From assembly GCA_014526335.1 (NCBI GenBank), contig JACTAT010000094.1, forward strand, positions 1-64,000: 64,000 nt of DNA, written 5' to 3'. The stretch comes from Chrysaora quinquecirrha (taxonomy: Eukaryota; Cnidaria; Scyphozoa; Semaeostomeae; Pelagiidae). A program made the position numbers and the translations under genes. Of this stretch, positions 644 to 57,607 are shown one piece after another. Position 1 is the stretch's first letter; each line of letters opens with the position of its first letter. The notes beneath the pieces are model-generated. The model was not told where the DNA came from, did not search any database, and worked only from the letters and a program-made list of their open reading frames with translations.

Positions 644-23693
<23,050 letters not shown>

Positions 23694-33600: not shown

Positions 33601-36333
33601 GAACAAAGGGAACAAAGCGAGAACATCGGGAACAAAGCGGGAACATCGGGAAATAAGCGGGAACATCGGGAACAAACCGATGTCCCCGCTTTGTTCCCGA
33701 TGTTCCCACTGTTCCTGATTTTAGAGAGATAGCCCTTTTTGCCCGACACAAGCATAAAATGCTTGCATAGCAAATCTCAAATGTTTGACCAACAATGTTT
33801 GATCGTTTGGCAATAGTCTCAGAGTCAGCATTAGATACTTTTAGCATTATTGCTAGCTTTAGCAATAGGGTTAGGCTTAAGCGTTATTAACATTAGGGAA
33901 GCAAATTACCTTTAGGATAGGCATAAGAGTTGGTTTAGTGTTGATTGGTGTTAGCCTTTTTGTTGGGTTCAGCGTTAGAGTTAGCATTAGAATTTGCTTT
34001 TGCGTTAGAATTATCGTTCGGGTTAGCATTATAGAGTTAGCCTTTCAATTGACGTTAGGGAAAGCATTAGAATTGGCCTTAGCTTTATTATTACCTTTAG
34101 GATAAGCATTAGGGTTCGTTTTAGCGTTAATTAGTGTTAGTCTTTCAGTTAGCTGTAGTGTTAGGGTTAGAATTATGGCTGGTTTTAGCGTAAGAATAAC
34201 TGTTAGAGTTAGCATTAGAGTTAACATTTCAATTAGCGTTAGGGTTAGCCTTAGAATTGGCCTTAGCGTTATCATTGCCTTTAGGGTTAGCATTCGAGTT
34301 GGTTTAGCGTTAATAAGTGTTAGCCTTTCAGTTGGCTTCAGCGTTAGGGTTAGCATTAGAATTCGCTTTAGCGTTAGAATAACTTTCAGGGCTAGCATTA
34401 GAGTTAGCATTCATATTAGCGTTAGGGAAGCATAAGAATTGGCTTTAGCTTTATTACTACCTTTAGGATAAGCATTAGAGTTAAGCGTTAATTTGTGTTA
34501 GCCTTTCAGTTATCTTTAGCGTTAGATTTAGCATTAGGATTTGCTTTAGCGTTAGAGTCACTGTTAGGGTTAGTATTAGAGTTAGCATTTCAATTAGCGT
34601 TAGGGTTAGCCTTAGAATTGGCCTTAGCGTTATCATTACCTTAAGTATAGCCATAAGAGTTTGCTTAGCGTTAATTAGTGGTAGTCTTTCAGTTAGCTTC
34701 AGCGTTAGGGTTAGCATTAAAATTTGCTTTAACGTTACAATAACTTTTAGGGTTAGCATTAGAGTTAGCATTCCAATTAGCGTTAGGGAAAGAATAAGAC
34801 TTGGCCTTAGCGTTATTAATACCTTTAGGATAAGCATTAAAGATCATTTAGCGTTAATTAGTGTTAGCCTTTCAGTTGGCTTTAGCGTTAGGGTTAGCAT
34901 TAGAATTTGCTTTAGCGTTAGAATCACTGTTAGGGTTAGCATTAGAGTTAGAATTCATATTAGCGTTAGGGGAAGCATTATAATTGGCTTTAGCGTTATT
35001 ATTACCATTAGGATAAGCATTAGAATTTGCTTTAGCGTTAGAATAACTTTTAGGGTTAGCATTAGAGTTAGCATTCATATCAGCATTAGGGAAGCATAAG
35101 AATTAGCAAGGTTTAGTGTTCGGATAAATTAGCATTATAGTAAGCTTAAGCATTAGACATTTATCTTTTTCATAATCAGTTGCTTAATTTGTGTATGTCT
35201 GAGTCATTGCTCTGGCAATTGTGCATTCTAAAAAGAAAACTGTCTTACTTGTCAAAATGCTCAACTGGTCTTTCAGTTGGTTGGTCAGCAGGCTGGTATG
35301 CAGGTGGAGGTCCAGCAGCAACTGTTAAAATAGCAAATCAATCATCCATTTCAGACCAAGTTTTTCCACGGAAATTGGAAGAAATAAAGTAGCTATGGCA
35401 TACAGAGAAAGTTCACATGAAAAAACTCAAACAAATATGTATGCTTCAAAAATCAATTCAACATACCTCCATTGAAACCACTTGCATTTTCATATCCAGA
35501 AATCTTATCAAATGAAGGAGCACTTGGCATTGCCTGTCCAAGATTTGGATCTCCTGTCATAGAAAACGCAAATTTAAATACAGGTAATAGTTCTTGTAAT
35601 ACCTGTAATAGTGTTAGCCTTAGAGAAGGTAGGAATGCAAAAGGGGGGCTGTGGGGCAGCTCACACCTTTACCAAACGAAAATTTTTATAAATCATTAAG
35701 TTTTCACGGTTCTGAATCTGCCCTCCTTTACCCCAAACTGTTTTGGGCATCACTTGAAGCACGCATTTGCTCCTGAGGATATCAAAGCCAGAGGCGCCCG
35801 AAGCAGTTAGGGACAAGGAGGGTGGAATCCTAATAATAAGAGTAAAAGTAGGAAAAAGAAAAAATGATGTTCATTTGAGCAATAGAACTTTTCAAAGAGG
35901 TCTGTATCGGCATGACACATTCATGGAAGATGGCACACATCTGGGGTAAGGAAATCCTCTCTGTGTGCAACAACCTGTCTCTCTCTAAGAAACTGCAATC
36001 CCAGTCACTGCATGGCTAGAGGATTCCTTTACTCAACATTCTGCCATCTTCCAGAAAAATGTTATGCCAAAAATGTGATTATTTCAACTTTTATGACAAC
36101 ATTGCAATTTTTTGCAATTTTTGCACTTCCACTCATCAATCTGACAGCAAAGAAAATTACAAGTCATAATTACCTGAAGGGGGATAACCTCCTGCAGCCG
36201 ATGGCATGTGTTGGCCTGGGGGTTGATATCCAGGTGCTTGTTGTGGTTGAAATCCTTGATTAGCAGGGTATCCTGCACCAGGGTAACCTCCTGGGCTCAT
36301 GGGAGGACCTCCTTGGTTATAACCTTGATTCAT
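25574..36333 (-). CDS. SSUH2: SSUH2 homologue, complete
   Basis: Eleven exons: 36174-36333, 35467-35553, 35249-35321, 32360-32489, 31587-31772, 30398-30460, 29504-29595, 29147-29239, 27956-28058, 27121-27225, 25574-25720, all in consistent phase, giving 412 residues. The N-terminus is a Gly/Pro/Gln-rich low-complexity tail ([19 protein letters not shown]). Then come [20 protein letters not shown] and [15 protein letters not shown], then six CxxC knuckles in DnaJ-like CxxCxGxG form ([48 protein letters not shown], residues about 214-285). The C-terminal domain has [19 protein letters not shown] and [17 protein letters not shown]2 family proteins are poorly characterised; a tooth-development role has been reported in vertebrates. 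The end CCCGCSIL resembles a prenylation box. The start is the first Met after an apparent 3' splice site. Confidence 0.93.
26097..26371. mobile_element. CCCTGGCCAAACG inverted-repeat element
   Basis: Ends ACCCTGGCCAAGCGATCAAA and TTTGATGGTTTGGCCAGGGC. The interior has AAACATT repeats. It lies in the last intron of SSUH2. Confidence 0.75.
26680..27060. repeat. Dispersed repeat copy
   Basis: Shares ACTTGCATCTTGTTTCC, GATTCCTTTTCTCTCTTC and TTGCACGCGGAGAG with the copy split at 9560-10330. Non-coding, in the last SSUH2 intron. Confidence 0.5.
27300..27890. other. SSUH2 intron segment, nothing recognised
   Basis: Contains a G run at about 27326 and short open frames without recognisable motifs. 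Possibly degraded transposon sequence. Confidence 0.3.
28120..28335 (+). mobile_element. Penelope-like element tail, diverged
   Basis: Shows GGTGCATTTCGATCCGCATC, TGGGTATAAATTCCACC and a degraded ACTCTGAGAAATGTCAGATG, AAAAAGATTCTTAAGTAGTA. The hammerhead core is mutated. Confidence 0.7.
28400..28600 (+). repeat. Possible tRNA-derived SINE-like segment
   Basis: A GC-balanced 200-bp block with TGGTGTAATCCAGCTGAC (A-box-like) and GGTTAGAGCCC (B-box-like, imperfect) about 45 bp apart. No poly-A tail or duplication was seen, so the call is weak. Confidence 0.25.
29721..30041. mobile_element. CCGTAAATC inverted-repeat element
   Basis: Begins TACCGTAAATCATCGAATTA and ends GAGGATTTACAGTA. The interior repeats GGGGGCTTATTCGAGG. 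The same family lies at 48807-49591 and 61405-61651. It lies in an SSUH2 intron. Confidence 0.8.
30535..31445. repeat. Kilobase purine/pyrimidine tract with GAA core
   Basis: The plus strand is almost entirely A and G, with a GAA microsatellite core at about 30548-30735. It is the intron between SSUH2 exons 5 and 6, so the transcript is C/U-rich and runs to within about 75 bp of the exon 6 acceptor (30461). Leu/Phe/Ser-only open frames through it are composition artefacts. Confidence 0.92.
32934..33188. mobile_element. Inverted-repeat element with TGGCTAAACT ends
   Basis: Left TGGCTAAACTGGGAGAC with CATGCG, right GCGACATGTCTCCTAGTTTA GCCA as complement. The interior mentions GTGTCCCC and GAGGGGACA in inverted order. 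Non-coding, in an SSUH2 intron. Confidence 0.65.
33221..33482. mobile_element. CCCTGGCCAAACG inverted-repeat element
   Basis: Ends CCCTGGCCAAACAATCAAAA and GATAGTTTGGCCAGGG. Internal AAACATTTG and TTGACAAGTAAA blocks. Confidence 0.78.
33540..33812. mobile_element. CCCTGGCCAAACG-family copy carrying a GGGAACATC tandem
   Basis: The right end AACAATGTTTGATCGTTTGG is the family terminus; the left end is diverged. Its centre (about 33585-33715) holds tandem GGGAACA-type units (AACATCGGGAACAAAGCGGG) that turn over into their complement, forming a hairpin. Confidence 0.55.
33843..35110. repeat. TTAGGG-like degenerate minisatellite with ~182-bp higher-order period
   Basis: Hexamer-like units GTTAGG/GTTAGC/ATTAGA over 1.27 kb. 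A landmark TGTTAGCCTTTCAGTT recurs at about 33951, 34136, 34318, 34496, 34679 and 34862, giving spacings of 178-185 bp. It lies in the SSUH2 intron between exons 3 and 4. Open frames on both strands are periodic and not considered genes. Confidence 0.9.
35760..36065. repeat. Dispersed repeat copy
   Basis: Shares CTTTTCAAAGAGGTC and GGAAGATGGC, and the inverted CCATCTTCCAGAAAAATGT, with the copies at 9560-9840 and 26980-27020. In an SSUH2 intron. Confidence 0.45.
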
Positions 36334-37670
36334 ATTGTTGATGTTTCCTTCAATAAAAAATTGGATGAACATTTCTTTATTTCATTCTGAAAATTTTGAT
36401 ATTGACTGGGTAGATTGAAACTTCATTTTGGTTCATGATAGCAAACCAATATGTACTAATGGGCCAGGTCAAAAAGTTGGACTTCTCAGAACAGTTCTAA
36501 TTGTCTGACTTTCTCTCTGACCTACATTTTGCATTTCTCTCATGCTCTGTTTGGAAAGTCGGACTTTTTGACCTGTGGCCTGCGCCAGTGTGCAGATACA
36601 CACTACTCTGGTCCCTATAAACTGACATCACTGTAATCAAATATAGCAATCTGCAAAAAGAGCCCCCCACTTATTCCGATCCCCCCCACTTATTTCATTT
36701 CACCAAATTTTCCAACCACCCCATGGGTCCTTAAGTAACATATCATCATTTCTGGGGTATGTTATAAATGCATCCATAAGCTAGGATCTAAGAATTCTTC
36801 AAGAGCTTGCTTTGCGAACAAATGCACAATACCTCCTAGTCCTAGTAGTACAATTGGTCTTTGGAAAACAAGGACCATGCACATGCTCGTTTTGCTGGGG
36901 GAGGGCGGAGGGGGTGCTGTTTTTGCAGATTGCTTTTGCAGATTGCTCAGCAAAACGAATTAAAGCTTTCCTAATACAATTTACTTACCTAAAATCTAAA
37001 TTACCTTCAAAATTTCCACGAGCAGCAGCAAATCAAGACAGAAGACACCAAAGACTCAAGAGGGCAGAGGCGGGACGCAGCAAACACAGCATGAAAGGAT
37101 TCTGCGCAGTGTTGCCAGATCCAAATTTGGAAAAATCCCAAATCGAGGCCCAAAAAATCCCAGAATTCAATGGTTTTTCTCAAAAAATCCCAAGGTCTAT
37201 TTTTAGTTTAGAAATGACGTCATTTTTGCCAGGAAAATGTGTTTTTCATAGAAACAGCTGCGGGGCTAGACTCATTACATGATTCGTAGTTATCGCTATT
37301 CAAATGAATCGCCTGGACGCTCAAACTACGACTCATAATCGAACGGTTATCTTTCTGGACTTACTTTTTCTGCCTCGTTTTCAAATTACCATGGTGACAA
37401 TGATGTCAACGGTAAGTGTTTGTAATGGCCTAAATTTACCGTGTCTAAAACGCGGTAAAAAACAATCTTTCTTTGTATTAAAACTCAACTCACTATTTGT
37501 TTTGGAGAAAGCTCTTACCAACTCAGCTTTTTCGATATTTGTTTCAAACTTTTAGCGACATTTAGTACTAAATCGGCTGCCAAATAGGGCTCGTATATTT
37601 TGCTGTGACGATGCAGCGGACCTGCCTCGTTTCCACGGGGAACAATTTTTTGTTCCCGCCAGTCTCAGAA
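36334..37670. other. Intergenic region between SSUH2 and the split-repeat element
   Basis: Presumed SSUH2 promoter and 5' untranslated exon. A 3' splice site (TTTATTGAAG) lies about 13 nt upstream of the start codon, so an upstream non-coding exon is expected. It also holds a palindromic dispersed repeat piece (about 37262-37335) and a GGGAACAA..TTGTTCCC hairpin at 37637-37658, just left of the element. No gene is recognised. Confidence 0.45.
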
Positions 37671-37925
37671 AATGTACCGTTAGACATAAAGTTTAGACGG
37701 GGGTTAATGGACGGAAGATTAAGACTGTCCCAATAAGATAAACGGGACAAACAGTCCCCCCGTGTGCTAGAACAGGTCATACCGGTCTTACCGGTTTTAT
37801 TCATAGTGGGCATGTGCAGAAGCACATGTCGAGAGCTGCACTCACCTCAGTCTGATCACTCGGCATACGCCTCTTCGAAAGCAAGAACAGTGGAGGACAT
37901 GGAAAATCAAAGATTTCACAACTTT
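37671..37925 (+). repeat. Split repeat A1
   Basis: 255 bp starting AATGTACCGTTAGACATAAA and ending GATTTCACAACTTT, identical to A2 (45012-45266, offset 7341). It contains a CATGTGC-agaa-GCACATG hairpin and a GGGAC..GTCCC pair. Confidence 0.95.
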
Positions 37926-40900
37926 TGGAGGAGGACGATATTGGTGAATCTCGAGGGACTTTCATTGTATTGGATCTCTATACAGATGACAATAGCATCT
38001 TGGGTGAGGAATTTCCAATTACTTTGCTTCAGTTAGGTACCTGTACCGACCTTTACCTTTTTCTTGGCCACGAGGTCGAAAGTCGCTTTAGGAAGGCGGA
38101 AGAAGTGGACGCTATGCTTTCCACTTTTTCTTGCATCGTCTTCGTTGATCCTCAGGTTATTTCGACGCAGATATTTGCGCTACCCCTTCTTTCTTTTCAA
38201 AAGCTTTTAATTTTCATACTGCAATGATTTAATCCTAATCGCGTGGTTTCTTTTCAAACTCGACAATCACACCCCATGCGGCTACCCTAGCATGGCCTAG
38301 GGCCTAAAACTCGTTACCTATAGCCTTTTTGCCTGGATATAAAGAATAGACGTCGCATAGAAATATATGATTTTCTATCTGTGTGCTACATTTGTTTTAT
38401 ACTAATGTTTTTGAATATTAGCAGATTAGTTTTTGAAAGCCACCTAATCACTGTCGTGCAATAATGCATGTCTTCTCAACAGAGGAGATACGCCCATTCA
38501 AATAGCATGCTGTGAAGCAGCGCCAAACGGGAGTACAAAGGTCGCCTGGCGGGTAGACCTTTGAACGATGAAATGTTTTTGCTTAGTGTTCTTGGGGTAC
38601 CTTACCCTGGTTTGTTTTGAAGCCTTGGTCCATTTTTGAAAGTATCAATAGTCTGCCTTGTTTATGGTTGGGAGCCTTTGCAGTCTCTCTCTACGGAGCC
38701 CACTGCCCACATCCTTATTACCTAGGGTTTAACCCCATGATTGGGCACATGAGTGCCGAAACACAACTTTGCTGCTGCCCCTGTTAGCAGACCCAATGAT
38801 TCCTATCAGTGCACACATAGGGTGCTTGTGTTATCATGAAAATGGTGTATTAGTCCGTCCATTAAGATTTTTTAATCTTGGCGCTTATCTTGATTGCACC
38901 CACCGAACATGGTGGTCTTTTGGCAGTGTTGTAAAAATTTTTATGCTAGTATTTTAACATGTTTTTAACAAATGTTACTGGAACTGCTCTACAGTGGGTC
39001 ACTTCACAACATCGGGGCATCTGTTTTCATACCTAGACTTGTTACCCATGCTATGACAAGTTATGAAATAGGTTCCAACTGCTGAGATTGTGCAAGTAAT
39101 ACCTAATACAATGTCAAATGTAGTGTCCCTACAGTAAGGTGTGGTAGTTTATCGTCATCTAAGAGGATTTTATCCAGCTTGGCATAAGGAATGTTACTGG
39201 GTACCAGAATAATGATATAGCAATTACCTACAACATGATCCTATATTGGTCGTATGTGATCCATGTAATGATCCTATCATATATGAGCATAAGATCCTAT
39301 TAAGTCCTGGTTTGGAACACAGTCAGTTTCATCACCCATACTCTGTTTCCTTAGCACGCCTATACTATAGTAGGCAAATACTTTTGCATGATTATTAATG
39401 TTACTGTTGCTGATCCATCAGGGTATGCATGGTGCCCTGCTATTTCCCCAATTGCTTAGATTAGGGGCAAATAGTTTTATATCAGCTGATTCCATCCGCA
39501 ACTAGAGTTGTTTTTTGGATACAAATTGATTTGTAGCATGCTCGTTTTTGCTGATTCTGTCAAAATCCGCAGTCTTGAATTCAGGTCTGCTTATCAAAAA
39601 GTTACAATGTTACATGTTTCAATGTGATTGGTGGAATGGTTATCGTTACTGCTTCTGTCAGCATTGGCAGTTAGAAGATTCAGTTTTTTCCATACAAAAG
39701 TTACAAATTTAACCCATGTTTAGCATGTTAGGTAAAGTGTTCGTTGTTGCAACCTCTGGCAGCACTTGCAGTTTTTTAGTTTGGTTTTGCTAACAAAAAA
39801 GTTAGAAATGTGACCCGTGTTTTCAGCTTGATTAGTAGAATGCTTGTTTGTAGTTTTGAATTAAAATTTTTTCTTAACCAAAAGTTACATTGTAACCCCT
39901 GCTTCAGCGTGCTACGTGGAATGTTTGTTTTGATGCCTCCGTCAGCAATTACAGTTCTTAGACCAATTTCGCTAACAAATATGTTAGAAGGCTACCCATG
40001 TTTTAACTTGAGTAATATAATGCTTATTTGCAGTTTTGGGTTTAGTTTGCTAACCAAAAAGTTACAACCTACAAATGAGATTTGAAAATGTTGGGCGATG
40101 CACACGGGCAACTTTCTTACATTCTTCTAGGCATTTAGCGAGTTTACACCTCGCTGCGCCGTGTGCATGGTCGATTTTGGTCGATTTTCTCGAGAACGTT
40201 CTCAAGAACGGATGAAAAGGACCGACTAATAAAATTGAGGACCTCTGGAAGGTCCTTGATTTTCACAAGTCGATTGTTTTCTTCGCGGTTTCTGTCATCA
40301 GGGATTAACGCTCCCCTCACTCTCTCGTCTACCATGGAATCGTGGACCTTCGGAGGCATGTTTTCATTAGATTTGCAATAGGAAATCGTGCGTTTTGATA
40401 AAAATAAAATTTAACTGATTCCTGGAGATGATAGGTTGTCATGAACGTCATTAAATGAAATGAAAAACTTAGTAAAACGCAATGGAAACAGCAACGAATA
40501 ATGCTCTTTTTGCCTTCTTTCCCATTTGGTTGCTACCCAGAGACGCAAAACGGCTGTTTAACCCATGAAATATATCAAAATGAATTAATCAAAGATTTCC
40601 AAGGTCTTTCAAAACCTATCTCTGAAATTTTTGCAAATGCGGTACAAATTTTCACGGGAATCATTTTGTTTTGATAGAAATTTCTTTAGCTTTTTCGGCC
40701 AGTGATTTTTCCATTGAAGTTGTTTGGATCCAAAATAATTAACAGTAATGTCAACAGAAATTACTGTAATTGGCATCTGCTGTTACATGTCCATTTCAAA
40801 AGTAAGAAGGAAACTGAGGAATTTAGAATTTAGAGGAATGTTGCCTGCTGTTTTAAGAAAGTTTCAGTGCTCGTGTGCATCGCCCTTTTTGTTCGCAGTT

Positions 40901-43900
40901 TTGGATTCAGTTTGCCTACCAAAAGTTATAACTTTTACCGATGTCTCAAAGGAATTTGTAGAATGTTATTCTGCTGCTTTGGTCAGCACTTCCAGTTTCG
41001 AAAACTAACTTTTTACTAACCAAACATTTACAAAATGTTACCCATGTTGCTGCTTTGTCAGCATCTGCAGTTTGGACTCCTGTTTTGCATGGTTTTGCTT
41101 ACCCAAAATATTGAAATGTTACCCATGTTTTCACTTTTCAGCTTGATTAGTAGAATGCTTAATGGCAGTTTCGAAATAAGTTTTTCGGTTTTTCCTAACC
41201 AAAAGGTTACCAATGTAACAATGTAACCCATGTTTCAACGTGCTAGGTGGAATGGTCATGGCTGCTGCCTCCGTCAGCACTTGTTTACCCCTGTCTCAAA
41301 TGAGATTTGTTAAATGCTTATGATCGCTGCTTCCGTCAGTGCTTACAGTTCGCGAATTCAGTTTTGATGCCCAAAACGTTACCGAATGTTTACCTTTTTT
41401 CAACGTGATTTATGGAATCTTTTTGTTTGCTGTGTCCGTCAGCAATTGTGGTGTCTAATACAGGTTTGCTAACCACCAGTTGGTACAAAATACTGCCCAC
41501 GTCTTTCAGCTTCATTTGTAGAATGCTTATTTGCAGTTTTGGATTCAGTTTGCTCACTGCAAAGTTACAACTTTTCCCCATGTCTCAAAAAGATTTTTTA
41601 GAATGTTTATTCTTGCTGCTTCGCCAGCACTCGCAGTCTCCAATTCAGTTCTTGCTAGCCAAAAAAAGGTTACAAAATATTACGCTTTATTTCAAGACAA
41701 TTTGTAGCTTGCCTATTTTGCTGCGTCCATCAGTCATTTGCAGTGTCCAATACAGTTTTTCCAACCAACAAGGTACAACTGCTACCCATATTTCAATGCG
41801 AGTTATAGCATGCTTATTACAGTTGCAGATTCAGTTTGCTAACCGAAGTTACACAATTTGCCGATGTCTCAATGAGATTTGCAAAGTCGTTAGTGTTGCT
41901 GCTTTCGTCAGCACTTGCAGTTTTGAATTGATTTCACTAACCAAAGAGGTTACAAGCGTTACTCTTGTTCCAACATAATTTGTAGCTTGCCTACGTTGCT
42001 GCGTGCGTCAGCCCTAACAGTGTCCTATACAGTTTGGCTTACCAGCAAGGTACAATTGTTACCCATATTTCAACGTGATCAATAGAATGCTTATTGCAAT
42101 TTCAGATTCAGTCTGCTAACTAAAGTTACAACTTTTGCCGATGTCTCGATGAGATTTGAAAAGTCTTTATTGTCACTGCTTTCACCAGCACTTGCAGTTT
42201 TGAACTCATTTTGCTAACCAAAAAGGTTACAAGCGTTACTCTTGTTCCAACATAATTTGTAGCTTGCCTACGTTGCTGCGTGCGTCAGCCCTGACAGTGT
42301 CCTATACAGTCTTGCTCCAGCAAGGTACAATTGTTACCCATATTTCAACATGATTAATAGAATGCTTATTGCAATTTCAGATTCAGTCTGCTAACTAAAG
42401 TTACAACTTTTGCCGATGTCTCAATGAGATTTGAAAAGTCTTTATTGTTACTGCTTTCACCAGCACTTGCAGTTTTGAACTTACTTTGCTAACCAAAAGG
42501 GTTACCCAATGTTACTCTTGTTCCAATATAATTTGTAGCTTGCCTACGTTACTGCGTGCGTCAGGCTTGCCAGTGTCCTATACAGTTTGCACCAGCAAGG
42601 TACAATTGTTACCCATATTTCAACGTGATTAATAGAATGCTTATTGCAATTTCAGATTCAGTCTGCTAACTAAAGTTACAACTTTTGCCGATGTCTCGAT
42701 GAGATTTGAAAAGTCTTTATTGTCACTGCTTTCACCAGCACTTGCAGTTTTGAACTCATTTTGCTAACCAAAAAGGTTACAAGCGTTACTCTTGTTCCAA
42801 CATAATTTGTAGCTTGCCTACGTTGCTGCGTGCGTCAGCCCTGACAGTGTCCTATACAGTCTTGCTCCAGCAAGGTACAATTGTTACCCATATTTCAACA
42901 TGATTAATAGAATGCTTATTGCAATTTCAGATTCAGTCTGCTAACTAAAGTTACAACTTTTGCCGATGTCTCAATGAGATTTGAAAAGTCTTTATTGTTA
43001 CTGCTTTCACCAGCACTTGCAGTTTTGAACTTACTTTGCTAACCAAAAGGGTTACCCAATGTTACTCTTGTTCCAATATAATTTGTAGCTTGCCTACGTT
43101 ACTGCGTGCGTCAGGCTTGCCAGTGTCCTATACAGTTTGCACCAGCAAGGTACAATTGTTACCCATATTTCAACGTGATTTATAGATTGCTGACTGCAAT
43201 TTCAGATTCAGTCTGCTAACTAAAGTTACAACTTGTTCCAATGTCTCCATGAGATTTGCAAAGTTTTTATTGTTGCTGCTTTCACCAGCACTTGCAGTTT
43301 CGAATTCACTTTGCTAACCAAAAAGGTTACAAATGTTACCCTTGTTTCTACAAAATTTGTAGCTTGCCTATGTTTGCTGCTTAGCATTGCAGTTTCGAAT
43401 TCAGTTTGCCAACCTAAGAGTTATGAAATGTTACATGTGTTATTTGATTTGTGGAAAGTTTATTTTGCTGCCTCCGTCAGTACCTGCAGTCTCGAATTCA
43501 ATTTGATGCCCGAAAGATTCAGTTTACTAACTACAAAATTACAACTTTTACCCATGTTTGCATGAGATTAGTAAAATGTTATTGTTGCTGCTTCCGTCGG
43601 CATTTGCAGTGGCGAATTCTGTTTTGCTTACCAAAATGGCTACAAAATGTTAGCCTGGTTCCAACATAATTTGTAGCATGCCTATTTTACTGCTTGCATC
43701 AGCACTAGCAGAGTATAGTACAGTTTTGCCAACGAACAAGGCCCGAATTGTTACCCAGATTTCAACGTGACTTATAGAATGCTCATTGCAGTTTCGGATC
43801 CAGTTTGCTAACCAAAAGCTACAACTTTTGCTCATGCGATTTGCAGAGTCTATTGTTGCTGCTTTCACCAGCATTTGCAGTTTCGAATTTACTTTTGCTA

Positions 43901-45077
43901 ACCAAAAAGGTTACAAATGTTACCCTGGTTTCAACATGATTTAGCTTGCCTATTTTATGCTGCTTCTGCTTCTGTAAACACTTGCATTCTGGCCGAAATG
44001 GCGTATAACGTTGTTTGCCCTTAGAAGTTACCAGATGTCAACTTTGTTTCAACATGTTTTGCGGATTACTTATATTTGCTGACTCCGTCAGCAATCACAA
44101 GTTTGAACATAGTTTTGCTGACTAGCAAATTCCACATGATACCTACGTTTCAACGAGATTTTAAAGATGCTTATTGTTGCTGTTTCTATCAGCACTTGCA
44201 GTGTGGACTACAATGGCACATAACCGTGTCTTGCGGATCAAAGTTACCAATGTGACTCATGTGTTTAACATGATTTTAAAGCTTGTTGCTGCTGATTTCG
44301 TCAGCACATGTATTTTTGAATGTAATGGTGCCACAAAACGATGTAGCACCTGATCAATGTCATGGAATGGTACCTCTGTCGCTACAGGGTACGCAGAATA
44401 CATTGAATGTGGAATGAAATGATGGTGGGAGTCCTGTTCGGTCATCCGACGACTATTGAATTTCCCAGCCATGTTACACATGGTGTTGTGGACTGAATTT
44501 TAACAAGCCAAGACATTGTCGTGGCTCAATGATTGTTTGCTACTTGTTTCATCAGCATAGTGCATTTTTCAATGAAGAAGGAATAGACACCTCTGCGCGG
44601 TGTGACGTGTATGAAGTGAACGACCCGCGTCTTGATATGACGTGGATATGGTGAATGATGCTTATTTGTACTGCTAGCACATGCTTGATGGATGTTCTTC
44701 TCCTCTCGCCTTGACAGAGCGTCTTCTGCAATTGCTTTTCTTTTCTTAACTTACATTCCACTTCCTCCTCTTACTTCTTTCTCTGCCTGTTCCTTCATCT
44801 GCCCCAACAGGATGGACCACAGACTAGGAAGAAAAGATACATACTCAAGAAGAAAGGAGAAGATGTAGTGGTGATTGGCCGTAACCCTCCGGGTACTGTG
44901 GCCGGAAATGATTTTCCCTGGCCAATCACCTGCTGTAAAAAGGTTTATTGCGCAGGCAAACCGGGCAATGCACTTGAATGCCCAATTTTCCTGCTTAAGG
45001 GTCCGGACATTAATGTACCGTTAGACATAAAGTTTAGACGGGGGTTAATGGACGGAAGATTAAGACTGTCCCAATAA
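37856..45077 (+). CDS. Candidate two-exon gene inside the split-repeat element
   Basis: The first open segment (37856-38155) reads GTFIVLDLYTDDNSILGEEF and FLGHEVESRFRKAEEVDA and ends at a CAG/GTTATT donor in phase 0. The second (44811-45077) follows a strong pyrimidine-rich acceptor ending CCCCAACAG and reads KKKGEDVVVIGRNPPGTVAG, then CCKKVYCAGKPGNALECPIF, stopping at TAA. Joined in phase they would give about 188 residues with a 6.65-kb satellite-filled intron. The second exon runs through the B1/A2 joint. I do not recognise the protein. No clear start codon is present in the first segment, which begins after an in-frame TGA, so another upstream exon or a different frame may be involved. 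Confidence 0.35.
40093..40885. mobile_element. GGGCGATGCACACG inverted-repeat element inserted in the satellite
   Basis: The left end GGGCGATGCACACGGGCA is complemented at the right by TGCTCGTGTGCATCGCCC. A minus-strand open frame at 40144-40359 starts MPPKVHDSMVDERVRGALIP (71 residues, no family recognised) and may be the remnant of an element protein. A partial copy lies at 16197-16330. Confidence 0.7.
42081..43180. repeat. Exact 550-bp tandem duplication within the satellite
   Basis: The segments 42081-42630 and 42631-43180 read the same by eye, with offset 550 (for example TTATTGCAATTTCAG at 42091 and 42641, TGTCACTGCT at 42171 and 42721). Each holds two ~275-bp subunits that differ from one another. 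Confidence 0.9.
44901..45016 (+). repeat. Split repeat B1
   Basis: 116 bp starting GCCGGAAATGATTTTCCCTG and ending GGTCCGGACATTAATGT, identical to B2 (offset 460). It overlaps A2 by the shared AATGT. Confidence 0.95.
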
Positions 45078-45266
45078 GATAAACGGGACAAACAGTCCCC
45101 CCGTGTGCTAGAACAGGTCATACCGGTCTTACCGGTTTTATTCATAGTGGGCATGTGCAGAAGCACATGTCGAGAGCTGCACTCACCTCAGTCTGATCAC
45201 TCGGCATACGCCTCTTCGAAAGCAAGAACAGTGGAGGACATGGAAAATCAAAGATTTCACAACTTT
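45012..45266 (+). repeat. Split repeat A2
   Basis: Identical to A1. It follows B1 directly, with AATGT shared, and is followed by a 94-bp spacer before B2. Confidence 0.95.
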
Positions 45267-45360
45267 CCCACCCACCCAAGTTCCCTCTTTTATTTCTCTG
45301 GTTGCTTTTCTCTTCTTCTTACTCTGCGGCACTTTTCGCCGGAGAATAGGTGCGTTGCCT

Positions 45361-45476
45361 GCCGGAAATGATTTTCCCTGGCCAATCACCTGCTGTAAAA
45401 AGGTTTATTGCGCAGGCAAACCGGGCAATGCACTTGAATGCCCAATTTTCCTGCTTAAGGGTCCGGACATTAATGT
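45361..45476 (+). repeat. Split repeat B2
   Basis: Identical to B1. Its AATGT end is followed by CCG, making the perfect 16-bp palindrome CGGACATTAATGTCCG at the right junction. Confidence 0.95.
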
Positions 45477-45483
45477 CCGTAAT

Positions 45484-45570
45484 ATTATGAGTCCCAGTTT
45501 GAGCGATCTCGGTTTGGTGTAGTCTCGGTCTGGTGAGCGATAACTGGGACTCAGGTAATAAGTCTACTGC
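45484..45570. repeat. Palindromic dispersed repeat
   Basis: GAGTCCCAGTTTGAGCGATC pairs with GAGCGATAACTGGGACTC, followed by GGTAATAAGTCTACT. Related pieces lie at about 23880-23965, 26020-26095, 37262-37335 and 51985-52050. Confidence 0.6.
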
Positions 45571-45954
45571 GGGACCCCGCGGGCGGTGAATTTTTTTTGT
45601 GTTTACGAAAAAATAAATTTCAAAATTATAGAAAATAAGTGTATTTGGTATACCAGAGAGTGTTAAGAGTGAAAATACAGTGCAAAATCGGACTTAAACC
45701 TCCATATTTCATATAAAAACAATGTATTGAAAATTCTCTAAAATTCCCAAGATTTTTCCCAAGATTTTTTCTCAGAAAAAAAATCCCAACAGCCTTAAAA
45801 ATTCCCAAGATCTTGGGATAAAATCCCAAGTCTGGCAACACTGATTCTGCGGTTTCAAAAAGAATGTGTTGACATTGCAGTTTTTTATTGTTGTTGTGGT
45901 TGTGCAGTATTAGCATGAATACGAGGCGCAAGTTTGAGAGAAGAAAAAATAGCA

Positions 45955-50648: not shown

Positions 50649-52720
50649 TTAGTAACTGTGAATTTCATCGAACATTTTCTGGATCTCGCTGCTTAGGTAT
50701 CTTGTTTTGGAGCGTACCAGCTCAATTTCATCTAAAAGAAGAAAGGAATAACTTAAATATTAAAGGCCCTGGCAAAACGATCAAACATTGTTTGCATAGT
50801 TGTTTGTTGTTTGTCAAACATTTGAAATTTGCCTCGAAAGTAATATGTCTGACTGTTTTGCCACGTCGAAAACAATGCTTGCCAAACATTTTTTTGCTTG
50901 GTCCTTTTGCTTGTGTCAAGAAAAAGTGTTTTTGAAAATATAGCTTACTTTTGCAAAAGCGATGCTTTGTGAAGTGCCCAAACGATCAGACATTGCTTGT
51001 AAAGCGAATCTCAAATGTTTGACCAACAATGTTTGATCGTTTTGCCAGGGCTTATTATCACAGAACAGTTTTTCTTAGCATTCTGTCAGTTATTGCTCTT
51101 TGATGCTTCTAGTCGCTTTTTGAATGCGTCTAAGGCTCTCCCCGAACGATCAAACATTGTTCGTCAAACAATTGAAATTTGGCCACGTCGCAAACCATTG
51201 CTTGTCAAACATTTTTGCTTGTGAGATGCAGAAAATGTTTTTGAAGTTTTTCAGCAACATTGCTAAGCAATTACGCTTATCATGCAATGTTTGCGACGTG
51301 GCAGATAGGTAAAACCTTGCTTTTAGAGCAAATCTCAAATTTTTGACAAACCATGGTTTCCTTGTGTATAAATATCATCTGTTTTGCGACAGTTTTGTGG
51401 GAGATACGTCTGCAGACGTCTCGCTGCCGACTGACTTCTCCTTTAACTCAGCTAGTAGTTTTTGAGCAGTACAAAAGTTCAAAATTGTGAGAAAGAGCGA
51501 AAACATCTTTGGGCATACTTAAAAGCTTTTTCGCCTTACACTCCACAGAGTACGAGGGTCGGAAACAAACCGAAACAATAAACTAAGGCGGTATTTATAC
51601 CCAGACGCGGATCGAAATGCGCCAATAGAAAAGTGAAGCTAGAAGAAAACTGTATTTTGAAAATCAATCAGCTCGTGGGATACAGCCAGAAGATCAATCA
51701 AATTAATTGAAGAGTCCAAGTGAGAAACCAAACTATTTCTGTTTACACAGAACCGGCCTTTTGGTTTTGATATGGACAAATTCCGAAACGCTTAAATGAA
51801 ACAATGATCTAGCTTTGCCAATTATTCGAAAATAATCCTCGATGTAATTTTTTACGCAATTTCTTAACCCAGCTATTTTCTACCTTTCCAGGACGTTTTT
51901 CTTTCGTTTTCCTTATGGCCCTTATGAATTACCTTGAAAAAAACAGTTAAACTTCTAGACTTATCCCTATTGAGTTCAACTGCTGGACGCTCAGTTTGAA
52001 CGATCTCGGTTTGGTGTTAGTCTCGGTTTGATGAGAGGTAATAAGTCAAGTAAACTTCATAAAGAATTTAATACCTTGTAAATTTTCTTTCACTCTTGAT
52101 AAAGTCTTCATTTTATCATCACTTAGAAACCATCTTTCTTGGGCTCCTCTAAGCCGATCAGCTAAATACCTCATCTCATCCTCCAACTCAATTTCACGAT
52201 CGGTTGACGAGATTTCTTTTCGTTCCATTTGTCGCAGCTGCTGACCAGCATGATCAATCTCCGAGTCGAAAAACTCGGCCTTTTCTTTCGCCTCGTTGCA
52301 TCTCCTCTCCGATTTTTCTAAATCGGCAATAAGAACACTTTCTCGCCTCTTCGCTTCATCCAGCAATTGCTTTCGCTCCTCGAAATTAATTTTCGCCACT
52401 CGCAAGCGATCTTCCAGCACGGTTAATCGGTCATCGTGATCATTTTCTCGTTTCTCGAGCACCTTTCGTTTGCTTTCGTTAATATCAATGTTAGTCTCGG
52501 TGTCTTGTAGTTTCTCCAAGGATTCTTGATACTGCTCCTGGGTCTGCTCGATTTTTTTCAAAACATTTTCTATTTTGCGTTCCATGGATTCCCGTTCCAA
52601 GAGACACGATTCCAGCCTTTGTTTCTCCATTCTTACGTACATTTCGATGTTCTTCGCCTTCTCATCTGATTCGTCAATTTCTTGACGAATTGTGTTTAGT
52701 TTTTGCCTCACAGCTTCCAT
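50649..52720 (-). CDS. Tropomyosin, short (242-residue) form
   Basis: Coiled-coil actin-filament side-binding protein. Coding exons 52075-52720 (646 nt) and 50649-50731 (83 nt) join in phase, giving 242 residues. It begins MEAVRQKLNTIRQEIDESDE, matching the tropomyosin start, and ends EIELVRSKTRYLSSEIQKM with FDEIHSY, matching the conserved tropomyosin C-terminus. The whole length is charged heptad coiled coil without prolines. Vertebrate muscle forms have 284 residues; about 240 corresponds to a six-period form of the kind reported for cnidarians. The start has an in-frame TGA four codons upstream, and a 3' splice site (TTATTCCAG) about 40 nt upstream implies a non-coding first exon. The single long exon is unusual against the many-exon bilaterian genes. 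Identity as tropomyosin is strong; the isoform is not determined. Confidence 0.9.
50764..51051. mobile_element. CCCTGGCCAAACG-family element
   Basis: Ends GGCCCTGGCAAAACGATCAA and TTTGATCGTTTTGCCAGGGC. It lies in the tropomyosin intron, starting about 35 bp from the last exon's acceptor. Confidence 0.78.
51135..51360. mobile_element. CCCTGGCCAAACG-family element, diverged
   Basis: Starts CTCCCCGAACGATCAAACAT and continues with TTGGCCACGTCGCAAACC blocks. Degraded right end. In the tropomyosin intron. Confidence 0.5.
51485..51800 (-). mobile_element. Penelope-like element tail fragment
   Basis: The reverse complement reads GTACTCTGTGGAGTGTAAGG, CGAAAAAGCTTTTAAGTATG, CCC. The core here is CTGTGGA instead of CTGAGGA, which would disable a hammerhead. 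In the tropomyosin intron. Confidence 0.72.
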
Positions 52721-53514
52721 TTCGATTCAAGCCTCACGAGTTCTTTCTTTTCAAGATAAACCTGGAATAAAATCAAAATAAAGATTACTCGGATTTCACG
52801 CTAGCGAGTCTATACGCACTACTGTGGTGGATATGCACTAATGCACTCGCTCCACAATATACTCTCAGGTGCTTGATACAAGTCTTGGGAAGCTTATTAA
52901 TGATCAGGTTTTTCTGATCATGATGGGCATCACTAAGACCCCTCACGTATTAATTTCAGTGGCAGAAAGTGCCCCAATTAAAAACAAGCAAGCATTTATT
53001 TTGGATGTTTGTGCATTCTCTGTCTGTTTCTTGGTATAGTTTACAGTTGTTATAGCATTAAATTTGCTCATTAATGAATAATAAACCTGTGAGCTTCCCG
53101 TTCATTTAAGTTTAAAAAAATTCCAACTAGTAAGACCCTGCTTGTATTAAGCAACTGTGGGTGTTATTGTTGATGGAATTTTTTCTGAGTTTTGTTTGAC
53201 TAAAACATTGTTCACGAGACAGAGCCACCTGAATGAAGTTTCCGAAATAAGTTTTTCCTCCCTCCCTTCCATGGGAAAGGGAAGGTCTGTGATGACAGAT
53301 GCATTGGCAGGAATTTCATTTTTCTTGGCAATCACCAACCAAAAAAGGGTTATTGCTTTTGCGAATGCATCAGTGAATAAACAAAAGATCACTTCCTGAG
53401 CCAGGTGAGCATTAACCATTCATAACCCTTCAATAAATGTCTCTAGAATGAAGGAAATCCTATCCACAAAATATCAGAAATATGTAAGTCATAAGAAAAA
53501 TGTCTTTCTTTTGA

Positions 53515-56217: not shown

Positions 56218-56974
56218 AGTTTTACAGTTCTTCAAAGCAGGGCTTGTCATTGTCAGTGGACTGGACACGATCATGACACGTTCGACGTTCAAATTCGCGC
56301 AATTCCAAAAACTATTAATAAATTTTGCAAGAATTCTTCTCCAAACTTGCGTGTTTCCAGAGCCAAACAAATTCCCTATTTCAGCAAAACCCCAAAAATT
56401 AAAAACCTTCAATTTTGCTCTGAAAACAAATGAAAACAATTTTGGAACCTGTCATGTAATGTCCAAATATGGATGACGCTTGATATGATGTATGATGACA
56501 TGATGACAAAACCAGAAGATGACGAAACTGTGCTAAAAATAGCAATTACGTTATGTTTTCAAGCTGTTTGACTCAAAATTTGCTCCCCCTGGAAAATGAA
56601 TTTATCAAATACAAATGCAGAAAGAACACCATTTGAAAACGGGGGCTAACGAAAACACTCCAATGAAAAAGCGGCGGGAAATAAAAGTCAGACTTGCTGT
56701 GGGAGAAATCAGAATTTTTTGCTGATGTCGGTTGATCGTTGTTCTGTTCATTTTTAGTGGAAATTAGACAAAATTATAACATAGACTTCATCCTAAGCTG
56801 CTATAAATCGACTTTTCGGATCTAAAAGTCCAGCTTTACCTCTTACTCTAAGATTATAGAGCTTACAAAGGCAAGGTGTAAAGTTAGGCTCGTTAAACTT
56901 AGGCCCCTTGTGGTGGAAAAACTCTTCGTGAGAAGAAGTCTAAAAAGAATTATTTGGCAGAGGCTAGAGGCGAA

Positions 56975-57607
56975 ATGAGTTTGTTCAGCAGTATTTTTGG
57001 CTCTTCAAAAGCAAAGGAAAATACTCCTACAACAACGGAAGCAATCTCAAAATTAAAAGAAACCATGGAACTGCTAGAGAAGAGAACGGCTTTTGTGGAG
57101 AAGAAAGTTGCAGCAGAAATTTTAACAGCCAAACAAAATGCATCAAAAAACAAAAGAGTTGCACTTCAGGCATTAAAAAGAAAGAAAAGATTGGAAAAAC
57201 AATTAAATCAAATAGATGGGACTTTATCAACACTGGAATTTCAAATAGATGCCCTTGAAAATGCAACAACAAATTCAGAGGTGGTTCGGTCAATGAAATT
57301 TGCTGCTGATACTATGAAGAAAGCACAAATGGATCCTGATGATGTTCATGATATTATGGATGATATAGCAGACCAAAAAGAGTTAACGGATGAAATAGGT
57401 GAAGTGCTTTCATCATTCGGGCAAAGTAATGCTGATGTTGATGAGGATGAATTGGAGAAAGAATTATTAGAATTAGAGAATGAGGATGTTGATTTGGAGT
57501 TGGAGGAGTTACCCGAGGCACCAAGTACAAAATTACCATCTACTAATAAGAAAGCAAAGATTGAAGATGAGGAAAGCATGAAAGAACTAGCTGCTTGGGC
57601 TTCTTAA
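56975..57607 (+). CDS. CHMP4: CHMP4 (ESCRT-III, Snf7 family), intronless
   Basis: ESCRT-III subunit that polymerises into the membrane-constricting filament in multivesicular-body formation, cytokinesis and membrane repair. A single 633-nt frame gives 210 residues. It starts MSLFSSIFGSSKAK with the short amphipathic N-terminal helix. The basic core has KNKRVALQALKRKKRLEKQL and IDGTLSTLEFQIDALENA, the Snf7 signature. An acidic tail (DVDEDELEKELLELENEDVD) follows. It ends MKELAAWAS, the ALIX-binding helix typical of CHMP4 paralogues. The usual family length is about 205-230. The ATG at 56975 is preferred because the frame upstream has no other ATG before it. Lack of introns could mean an ancestral state or a retrocopy; the frame is intact and the sequence looks constrained. 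Confidence 0.95.
   Translation: MSLFSSIFGSSKAKENTPTTTEAISKLKETMELLEKRTAFVEKKVAAEILTAKQNASKNKRVALQALKRKKRLEKQLNQIDGTLSTLEFQIDALENATTNSEVVRSMKFAADTMKKAQMDPDDVHDIMDDIADQKELTDEIGEVLSSFGQSNADVDEDELEKELLELENEDVDLELEELPEAPSTKLPSTNKKAKIEDEESMKELAAWAS

Follow-up and report, generated by a model that had tools for sequence, protein, structure and literature searches.

What is the 7.8-kb segment at 37671-45476 of the jellyfish (Chrysaora quinquecirrha) DNA analysed here, how did it come to lie where it does, and does the satellite that fills most of it belong to it? The original prediction, made from this stretch of 64,000 nucleotides (hereafter the window), saw in it the A1-B1A2-B2 layout of tyrosine-recombinase (YR) retrotransposons. 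The repeats on which that reading was founded lie at exactly the coordinates then given: A1 and A2 are maximal repeats of 255 bp (255/255 identical), and B1 and B2 are maximal repeats of 116 bp (116/116 identical), which for each pair is far beyond chance. The pentamer AATGT, said to lie at all three joints, is present at each of them. At 45012-45016 it is the overlap of the end of B1 with the start of A2, and it also opens A1 and closes B2, the two outer occurrences being partly a coincidence of the insertion site. The order of B1A2 and then B2 holds with one addition, a spacer of 94 bp between A2 and B2. The interior, described as a satellite array, does contain the array, together with non-array regions of 1.6 and 0.55 kb and a nested transposon of 0.8 kb (table 1).

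Table 1. Features of the window element, of its host transposon and of two coding elements with the same repeat plan
Feature	Position	Strand	Remark
Host: hAT-like non-autonomous transposon split by the element	37107..45843	.	Halves 37107-37670 and 45477-45843
A1, left terminal repeat, 255 bp	37671..37925	+	255/255 identical to A2
Left internal non-array region, 1.6 kb	37926..39520	+	Present in L009 at 98.5% and in L010 at 96.2%
Satellite array, higher-order unit of 275 bp at 41519-43380	39521..44350	+	Array also in L009 (3.9 kb) and L010 (4.0 kb)
Nested 0.8-kb inverted-repeat transposon inside the array, foreign to the family	40093..40886	.	No match in L009 or L010
Right internal non-array region, 0.55 kb	44351..44900	+	20 genome matches (20/20 candidates scored)
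B1, 116 bp	44901..45016	+	Identical to B2
A2, 255 bp, sharing AATGT with B1	45012..45266	+	Identical to A1; exact joint at 7 genome places
A2-B2 spacer, 94 bp	45267..45360	+	Also between A and B of solo copies
C-rich tract CCCACCCACCC, start of the 94-bp spacer	45267-45277	+	C-rich tract at the matching point in two coding elements
B2, right terminal repeat, 116 bp	45361..45476	+	Identical to B1
Coding element C442	C442:907093-912200		A 168 bp, B 94 bp, both pairs identical; spacer 65 bp
Coding element C2	C2:828669-834136		A 187 bp, identical; B 598-599 bp, 99.5%; spacer 46 bp

In the two further complete copies of the element (L009 and L010) the sequences that flank the nested transposon are separated by 411 and 494 bp, which indicates that some 0.4-0.5 kb of array has also been lost from the window copy at this point. 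The ends of this small transposon read GGGCGATGCACACG. Its kin occur at or beside the A repeat of L029, L030, L031, L037 and L043, and by the A repeat of several solo copies they sit at about one common position.

The element shows no recognisable protein. Seven frames of at least 100 aa overlap it, and a Pfam search returned no significant match for any of them (best E 0.46 among four frames, no match for three), in keeping with the earlier statement that no reverse transcriptase (RT), RNase H or recombinase frame lies inside. Two frames of exon-like appearance (37856-38227 and 44715-45077) were considered as coding and rejected, both being without a Pfam match. Indels between copies also disrupt the frame at the left end (37856-38227), and four of those aligned lack the AG that precedes ATGGACCAC, so an exon reading was dropped. 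Between 37000 and 46500 there are no inverted repeat pairs (minimum 40, seed 15) that could serve as DIRS1-like inverted termini, and an Rfam search of the window returned nothing at the gathering threshold. Elsewhere in the window, frames at 3224-4316 match RT at 23.7 bits, which is below cut-off, and GIY-YIG weakly; we take them to be the remnant of a Penelope-like element. A degenerate array of TTAGGG/TTAGCG type with a 183-bp unit occupies 33905-35040. A Snf7-family frame (56903-57607; E 1.4e-40) and a tropomyosin-type exon (52046-52726; E 1.2e-25) would be fitting for an animal genome.

The two flanks of the element are the halves of another non-autonomous transposon, hAT-like to judge by the features of that group, with 13-bp inverted ends (CAGTGTTGCCAGA/TCTGGCAACACTG) and an 8-bp target duplication, ATTCTGCG, at 37099-37106 and 45844-45851. 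The family of this host transposon looks abundant (1796 first-look candidates in the genome, 40 of them scored), and all 40 scored places span the insertion point uninterrupted. The eight relatives fetched all read AGAAAATGT followed directly by CCGTAATATT, with a single AATGT. An empty site had been anticipated, and AGAAAATGTCCGTAATATT is found letter for letter in 8/8 fetched relatives; these are paralogous copies of the host transposon, not alleles of the window locus.

The genome search with A and B that the original prediction recommended reveals a mobile family of dispersed copies. In the assembly of 328 Mb (740 contigs), there are 40 matches to A (44 candidates, 40 scored) and 41 to B (140 candidates, 40 scored). 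Outside the window, 38 A matches are held by 36 loci, of which two, L009 on C429 and L010 on C289, are complete copies like that of the window on C675. Internal non-array sequence is kept in seven others (L013, L019, L021, L023, L028, L039 and L040), and L013, L054 and L039 belong to one 12-kb element on C290. The most frequent form, at 17 of the 36 loci, is a solo A-spacer-B unit of 465 bp, free of internal sequence within the stretch fetched. One locus (L017) has A and B without a spacer match, and nine are fragments, including L035, which adjoins array-like sequence. Several solo copies share flanks (L015/L017, L016/L018 and L025/L029/L030/L031), so the independent solo insertions number fewer than 17. 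Another solo copy, L011, has an A repeat without differences from that of L010 in the bases compared. C173 carries a second subfamily, in which A starts differently. At L033, L034 and L041 an A-like sequence stands behind a different B-like end (AAGTATT/AATGAACC or GGCCATT/AATGAACC), and these loci perhaps represent further subfamilies; Cys-rich repeated frames adjoin L033 and L034.

Within complete copies the paired repeats are nearly or wholly identical. The window copy has no differences in either pair. In L009 the A repeats are identical over 250 aligned bases, with a 10-bp insertion at the A1 end, and the B repeats differ by one substitution; in L010 the A pair differs by one indel and the B pair is identical. 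Variants of A are common to both A repeats of one copy and differ between copies. This pattern would be expected if both repeats were made from one template at each insertion, and gene conversion could equally produce it. The core of the earlier claim, a non-autonomous satellite carrier with a split-direct-repeat YR-retrotransposon layout, recently inserted through a circle-type joint, is supported by the tests run, with conversion as another possible source of the identity of paired repeats.

The junctions were compared wherever the ends of a copy could be read. In such copies A starts with TG(T/A)ACC and B ends with ATTAA beside unrelated flanks, and the B/A joint is the direct apposition of the two. 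This indicates that AATGT is part of the element's own joint, the window target having happened to match it, partly by coincidence. Both ends could be read for 11 insertions, and if the joint is counted as part of the element, no target duplication among them exceeds 1 bp; the window copy, which formally carries AATGT at both ends, is explained in the same way. The insertions at the B/A joint are therefore without target duplication. Around the crossover the target matches the joint over five bases in the window, four in L016 and eight in L032, and over no or one base in the other 8 of 11. Matches of at least five bases, expected at about 1% of positions, were seen in 2/11 (binomial 0.006), and matches of at least three bases in 3/11 (binomial 0.058), few data in both cases. 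A joint-like target may be favoured but is dispensable, and since most targets mismatch the joint, the recombinase would need to tolerate mismatches. Insertion into TTAA, as by piggyBac-like elements, was considered and rejected, because the left flanks read are not TTAA. A preference for a small hairpin repeat carried by the host transposon was also considered; several loci adjoin such a repeat, some of them being duplicates or truncated.

The exact B/A joint, with zero mismatches, is found at seven places in the genome. Allowing up to three mismatches raises the number to 119 places, compared with 14 when the pattern is reversed, and most of those listed among the 119 belong to an unrelated inverted element end. 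In this connection, TCATTAATGTACTGTTAGAAA recurs many times, often in inverted pairs about 1-10 kb apart, and forms the termini of a different, abundant element, which are similar to the joint.

The distribution of the satellite bears on whether it belongs to the element. Searched for across the genome, the 275-bp unit has 54 matches (18/18 candidates scored), which fall into 10 clusters, and eight of the ten are element loci with a B/A joint, on C675, C429, C289, C290 (two), C257, C158 and C302. The clusters on C279 and C434 lie outside recognised copies; neither has A, B or spacer within the 1 kb fetched on one side, or a right internal region. The array-like matches beside the A piece of L035 were missed by this search, so divergent pieces can escape it. 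A free genomic satellite is opposed by the eight clusters in element loci, with C279 and C434 remaining contrary, and on the genome-wide pattern the array is a regular part of the element family rather than a widespread satellite. The proposal of a non-autonomous satellite carrier is borne out to this extent, the satellite being mainly in the element family. The window copy, L009 and L010 each have an array of about 4 kb with the 275-bp higher-order unit; in the 12-kb element on C290 the array comprises some 50 tandem units of 75 bp with 98% matches (L054 2541-6320).

Are there elements in the same genome that could supply the missing proteins? The recombinase survey comprised 88 listed Phage_integrase matches, from which 26 loci were fetched (L057-L077 and L081-L085), plus one in the flank of L013. 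DIRS1-type inverted ends of about 76-89 bp are found in most of L057-L067 and also in L071, L072, L073, L074, L075, L077 and L083. Split direct repeats occur at two of the 26, L069 and L076; L068 is truncated by another element, and L070, L081, L082, L084 and L085 have neither inverted nor split direct repeats within the short stretch fetched. Tandem arrays lie downstream of the recombinase frames of some other YR elements, with periods of about 197 bp (L065), 58 bp (L082 and L084) and 173 bp (L085). The broken YR frame in the flank of L013 (C290:12094684-12095163) lies about 0.5 kb upstream of A1 and by eye resembles that of the inverted-ended L075; a second YR match, C290:12005774-12006061, lies near an inverted duplicate of the L013 region.

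The two loci with split direct repeats are coding elements, on C442 and C2, and have the plan A1-internal-B1A2-spacer-B2 with gag, RT and YR between the repeats. The C442 element, whose B1 and A2 overlap by one base, encodes a gag with a zinc knuckle, an RT (RVT_1, E 2e-19) and a YR, and has RNase H and Dam-type methyltransferase matches that are both below the Pfam cut-off. The C2 element encodes a gag with a zinc knuckle and a YR, its RT match is below the Pfam cut-off (24.3 bits, E 2.9e-5), and the pieces given to Pfam hold no methyltransferase match. Coding elements of both the Ngaro kind (C2) and the PAT kind (C442) thus seem to be present in this genome. Over the stretches compared, no more than chance similarity to the A or B of the window element was found for either. 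Nor did comparison by eye of the 88 listed YR matches with the places of A, B and the joint (40 of 140 B candidates scored) find a coding partner sharing A and B. With regard to the autonomous relatives that had been foreseen, gag-RT-YR elements of the same plan are present, and among the matches compared none was found with the same A and B. The joints of the window element, C442 and C2 read ATTAATGT, ATAAATGC and GTTAATAC, respectively. All three are rich in C at the boundary between A2 and spacer (12, 13 and 12 C per 20 bases, in the same order), and 20-mers with at least 12 C make up 0.1-0.3% of those three sequences. The 11-mer CCCACCCACCC has a single occurrence in each of the window and the C2 stretch, located at the boundary (within 5 bases) in both, and is absent from C442. 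Shared by three families, the C-rich tract may be a functional signal, perhaps for priming or termination.

Taken together, we consider it very probable that the window element is a non-autonomous split-direct-repeat YR retrotransposon of Ngaro/PAT-like kind, which we infer to move through an RNA step and a circle with the aid of a helper. The arrangement A1...B1A2...B2 with near-identical pairs, which defines the class, recurs in L009 and L010. The layout recognised at the outset thus extends beyond the window, its joint being found in further copies and its plan in coding elements. The enzymes of an autonomous member (RT, RNase H and YR) were not recognised in the window element, which cannot be classed as such a member; non-autonomous kin need not encode them. 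As it shows no protein, Ngaro and PAT cannot be told apart here. The anatomy, the dispersed copies, the empty site, the absence of target duplications, the link between satellite and element and the coding elements of the same plan are all observed. Against this reading could be held that no partner with the same A and B was found, that 8 of 11 targets match the joint over no or one base, that the C2 RT is below cut-off and that conversion is possible.

The layout could also be read as a pair of circle-integrating, Crypton-like DNA elements in tandem, a long A-internal-B and a short A-spacer-B, one of them inserted at the junction of the other. A-spacer-B does occur alone, and for Cryptons movement in circular form has been proposed and non-autonomous derivatives are described (passages of PMC3212892). 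However, A-spacer-B follows the long unit in all three complete copies, the joint recurs at seven places, and the two gag-RT-YR elements have an identical plan and boundary tract. No long A-internal-B without A2 was identified, most partial copies not being read to both ends, and Cryptons have no long direct repeats whereas here there are repeats of 255 and 116 bp. We regard a tandem pair of this sort as unlikely. Another alternative would be an ordinary satellite locus whose flanks are repeated by chance and which spread by ectopic recombination or segmental duplication. The arrays on C279 and C434 outside recognised copies would suit it, as would the copies that are segmental duplicates of one another, but the exact empty site in an unrelated transposon and the unrelated flanks of other copies leave it very little probability.

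Still less probable, and to about the same degree, are an error of assembly and an LTR retrotransposon. The order of A and B is repeated on three contigs (C675, C429 and C289) and the joint at seven places, which argues against an artefact even though arrays can presumably mislead assemblers. If the element were a non-autonomous LTR retrotransposon whose LTRs were the 465-bp A-spacer-B units, the solo copies, which resemble solo LTRs, would be accounted for; the left end, however, consists of A only, without spacer or B, and 0/11 insertions have a target duplication above 1 bp. The same long repeat at both ends and the target duplication of 4-6 bp that mark LTR retrotransposons and TRIMs are accordingly not seen.

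For the preferred reading, that of a non-autonomous Ngaro/PAT-like element, we propose the following cycle. An RNA spanning the element would be copied by the RT and RNase H of a coding element, and the internal B1A2 block would serve as template, rebuilding the ends and closing a circle with the joint ATTAA/TGTACC. A YR acting in trans would then recombine the circle joint with a target, producing no target duplication; in the present case the target would have read AATGT. The satellite array would be carried along as an integral non-coding part of the body, and the 465-bp solo A-spacer-B units would arise from recombination between repeats or from YR resolution at two B/A joints. The array period varies between copies and arrays are found in some other YR elements, which leads to a bolder idea, namely that satellites are generated by the split-direct-repeat cycle. 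In that case the array would have arisen from the cycle or would assist it, instead of riding along as a passenger, and the C-rich tract at the boundary would be a general signal for priming or termination. We offer this tentatively, and consider it doubtful at present.

TOC1 of the green alga Chlamydomonas reinhardtii is non-coding; its terminal repeats are split in an unusual manner, and inside it lies a tandem array of about 76-bp units. The window element, from an animal, is likened to it by description and not by sequence; if this description of TOC1 is right, an internal array would not be new in itself. Ngaro elements, for example those of Cafeteria burkhardae, are given as A1-[ORFs]-B1A2B2 in passages of PMC8547959, where isolated AB repeats are likened to solo LTRs. 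The window element resembles them in repeat order, in the position of B1A2 near the right end and in its solo AB copies; unlike the window element, which has no recognised frame and is mainly satellite, Ngaro encodes gag, RT/RNase H and YR (PMC8547959, same passages). Criteria for Ngaro, PAT and DIRS1-like elements are set out in part of PMC4157794, which places Ngaro and PAT in the cnidarian Nematostella, and the split-repeat definition is repeated in a section of PMC9210276. With PAT-like elements the window element shares split direct repeats and a B1A2 block near the 3' end (PMC4157794, in that part); the weak methyltransferase match of C442 recalls PAT elements, whereas the window element is without proteins. 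SIRE, the A2-B2 part of VIPER in Trypanosoma cruzi (an excerpt of PMC6681497), resembles the 465-bp solo copies in being a short A-spacer-B unit that occurs separately from full elements, but has no internal body, and the likeness is one of description, not of sequence. Cryptons, in the relevant passages of PMC3212892, are YR DNA transposons with a proposed circle intermediate and non-autonomous forms; the window element is like them in the proposed circle, YR insertion and non-autonomous state, and unlike them in its long direct repeats. Among literature titles and the starts of abstracts, no satellite-bodied non-autonomous Ngaro or PAT element of an animal was found, which does not prove its absence from print.

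The window element would thus be an animal case of a split-direct-repeat retroelement that depends on a helper and consists largely of satellite, and a single genome offers its complete and solo copies, its exact empty site and coding elements built on the same plan. How B1A2 rebuilds the ends of such elements becomes testable, with the shared C-rich tract as a candidate signal, and so does whether such elements seed or expand satellite DNA.
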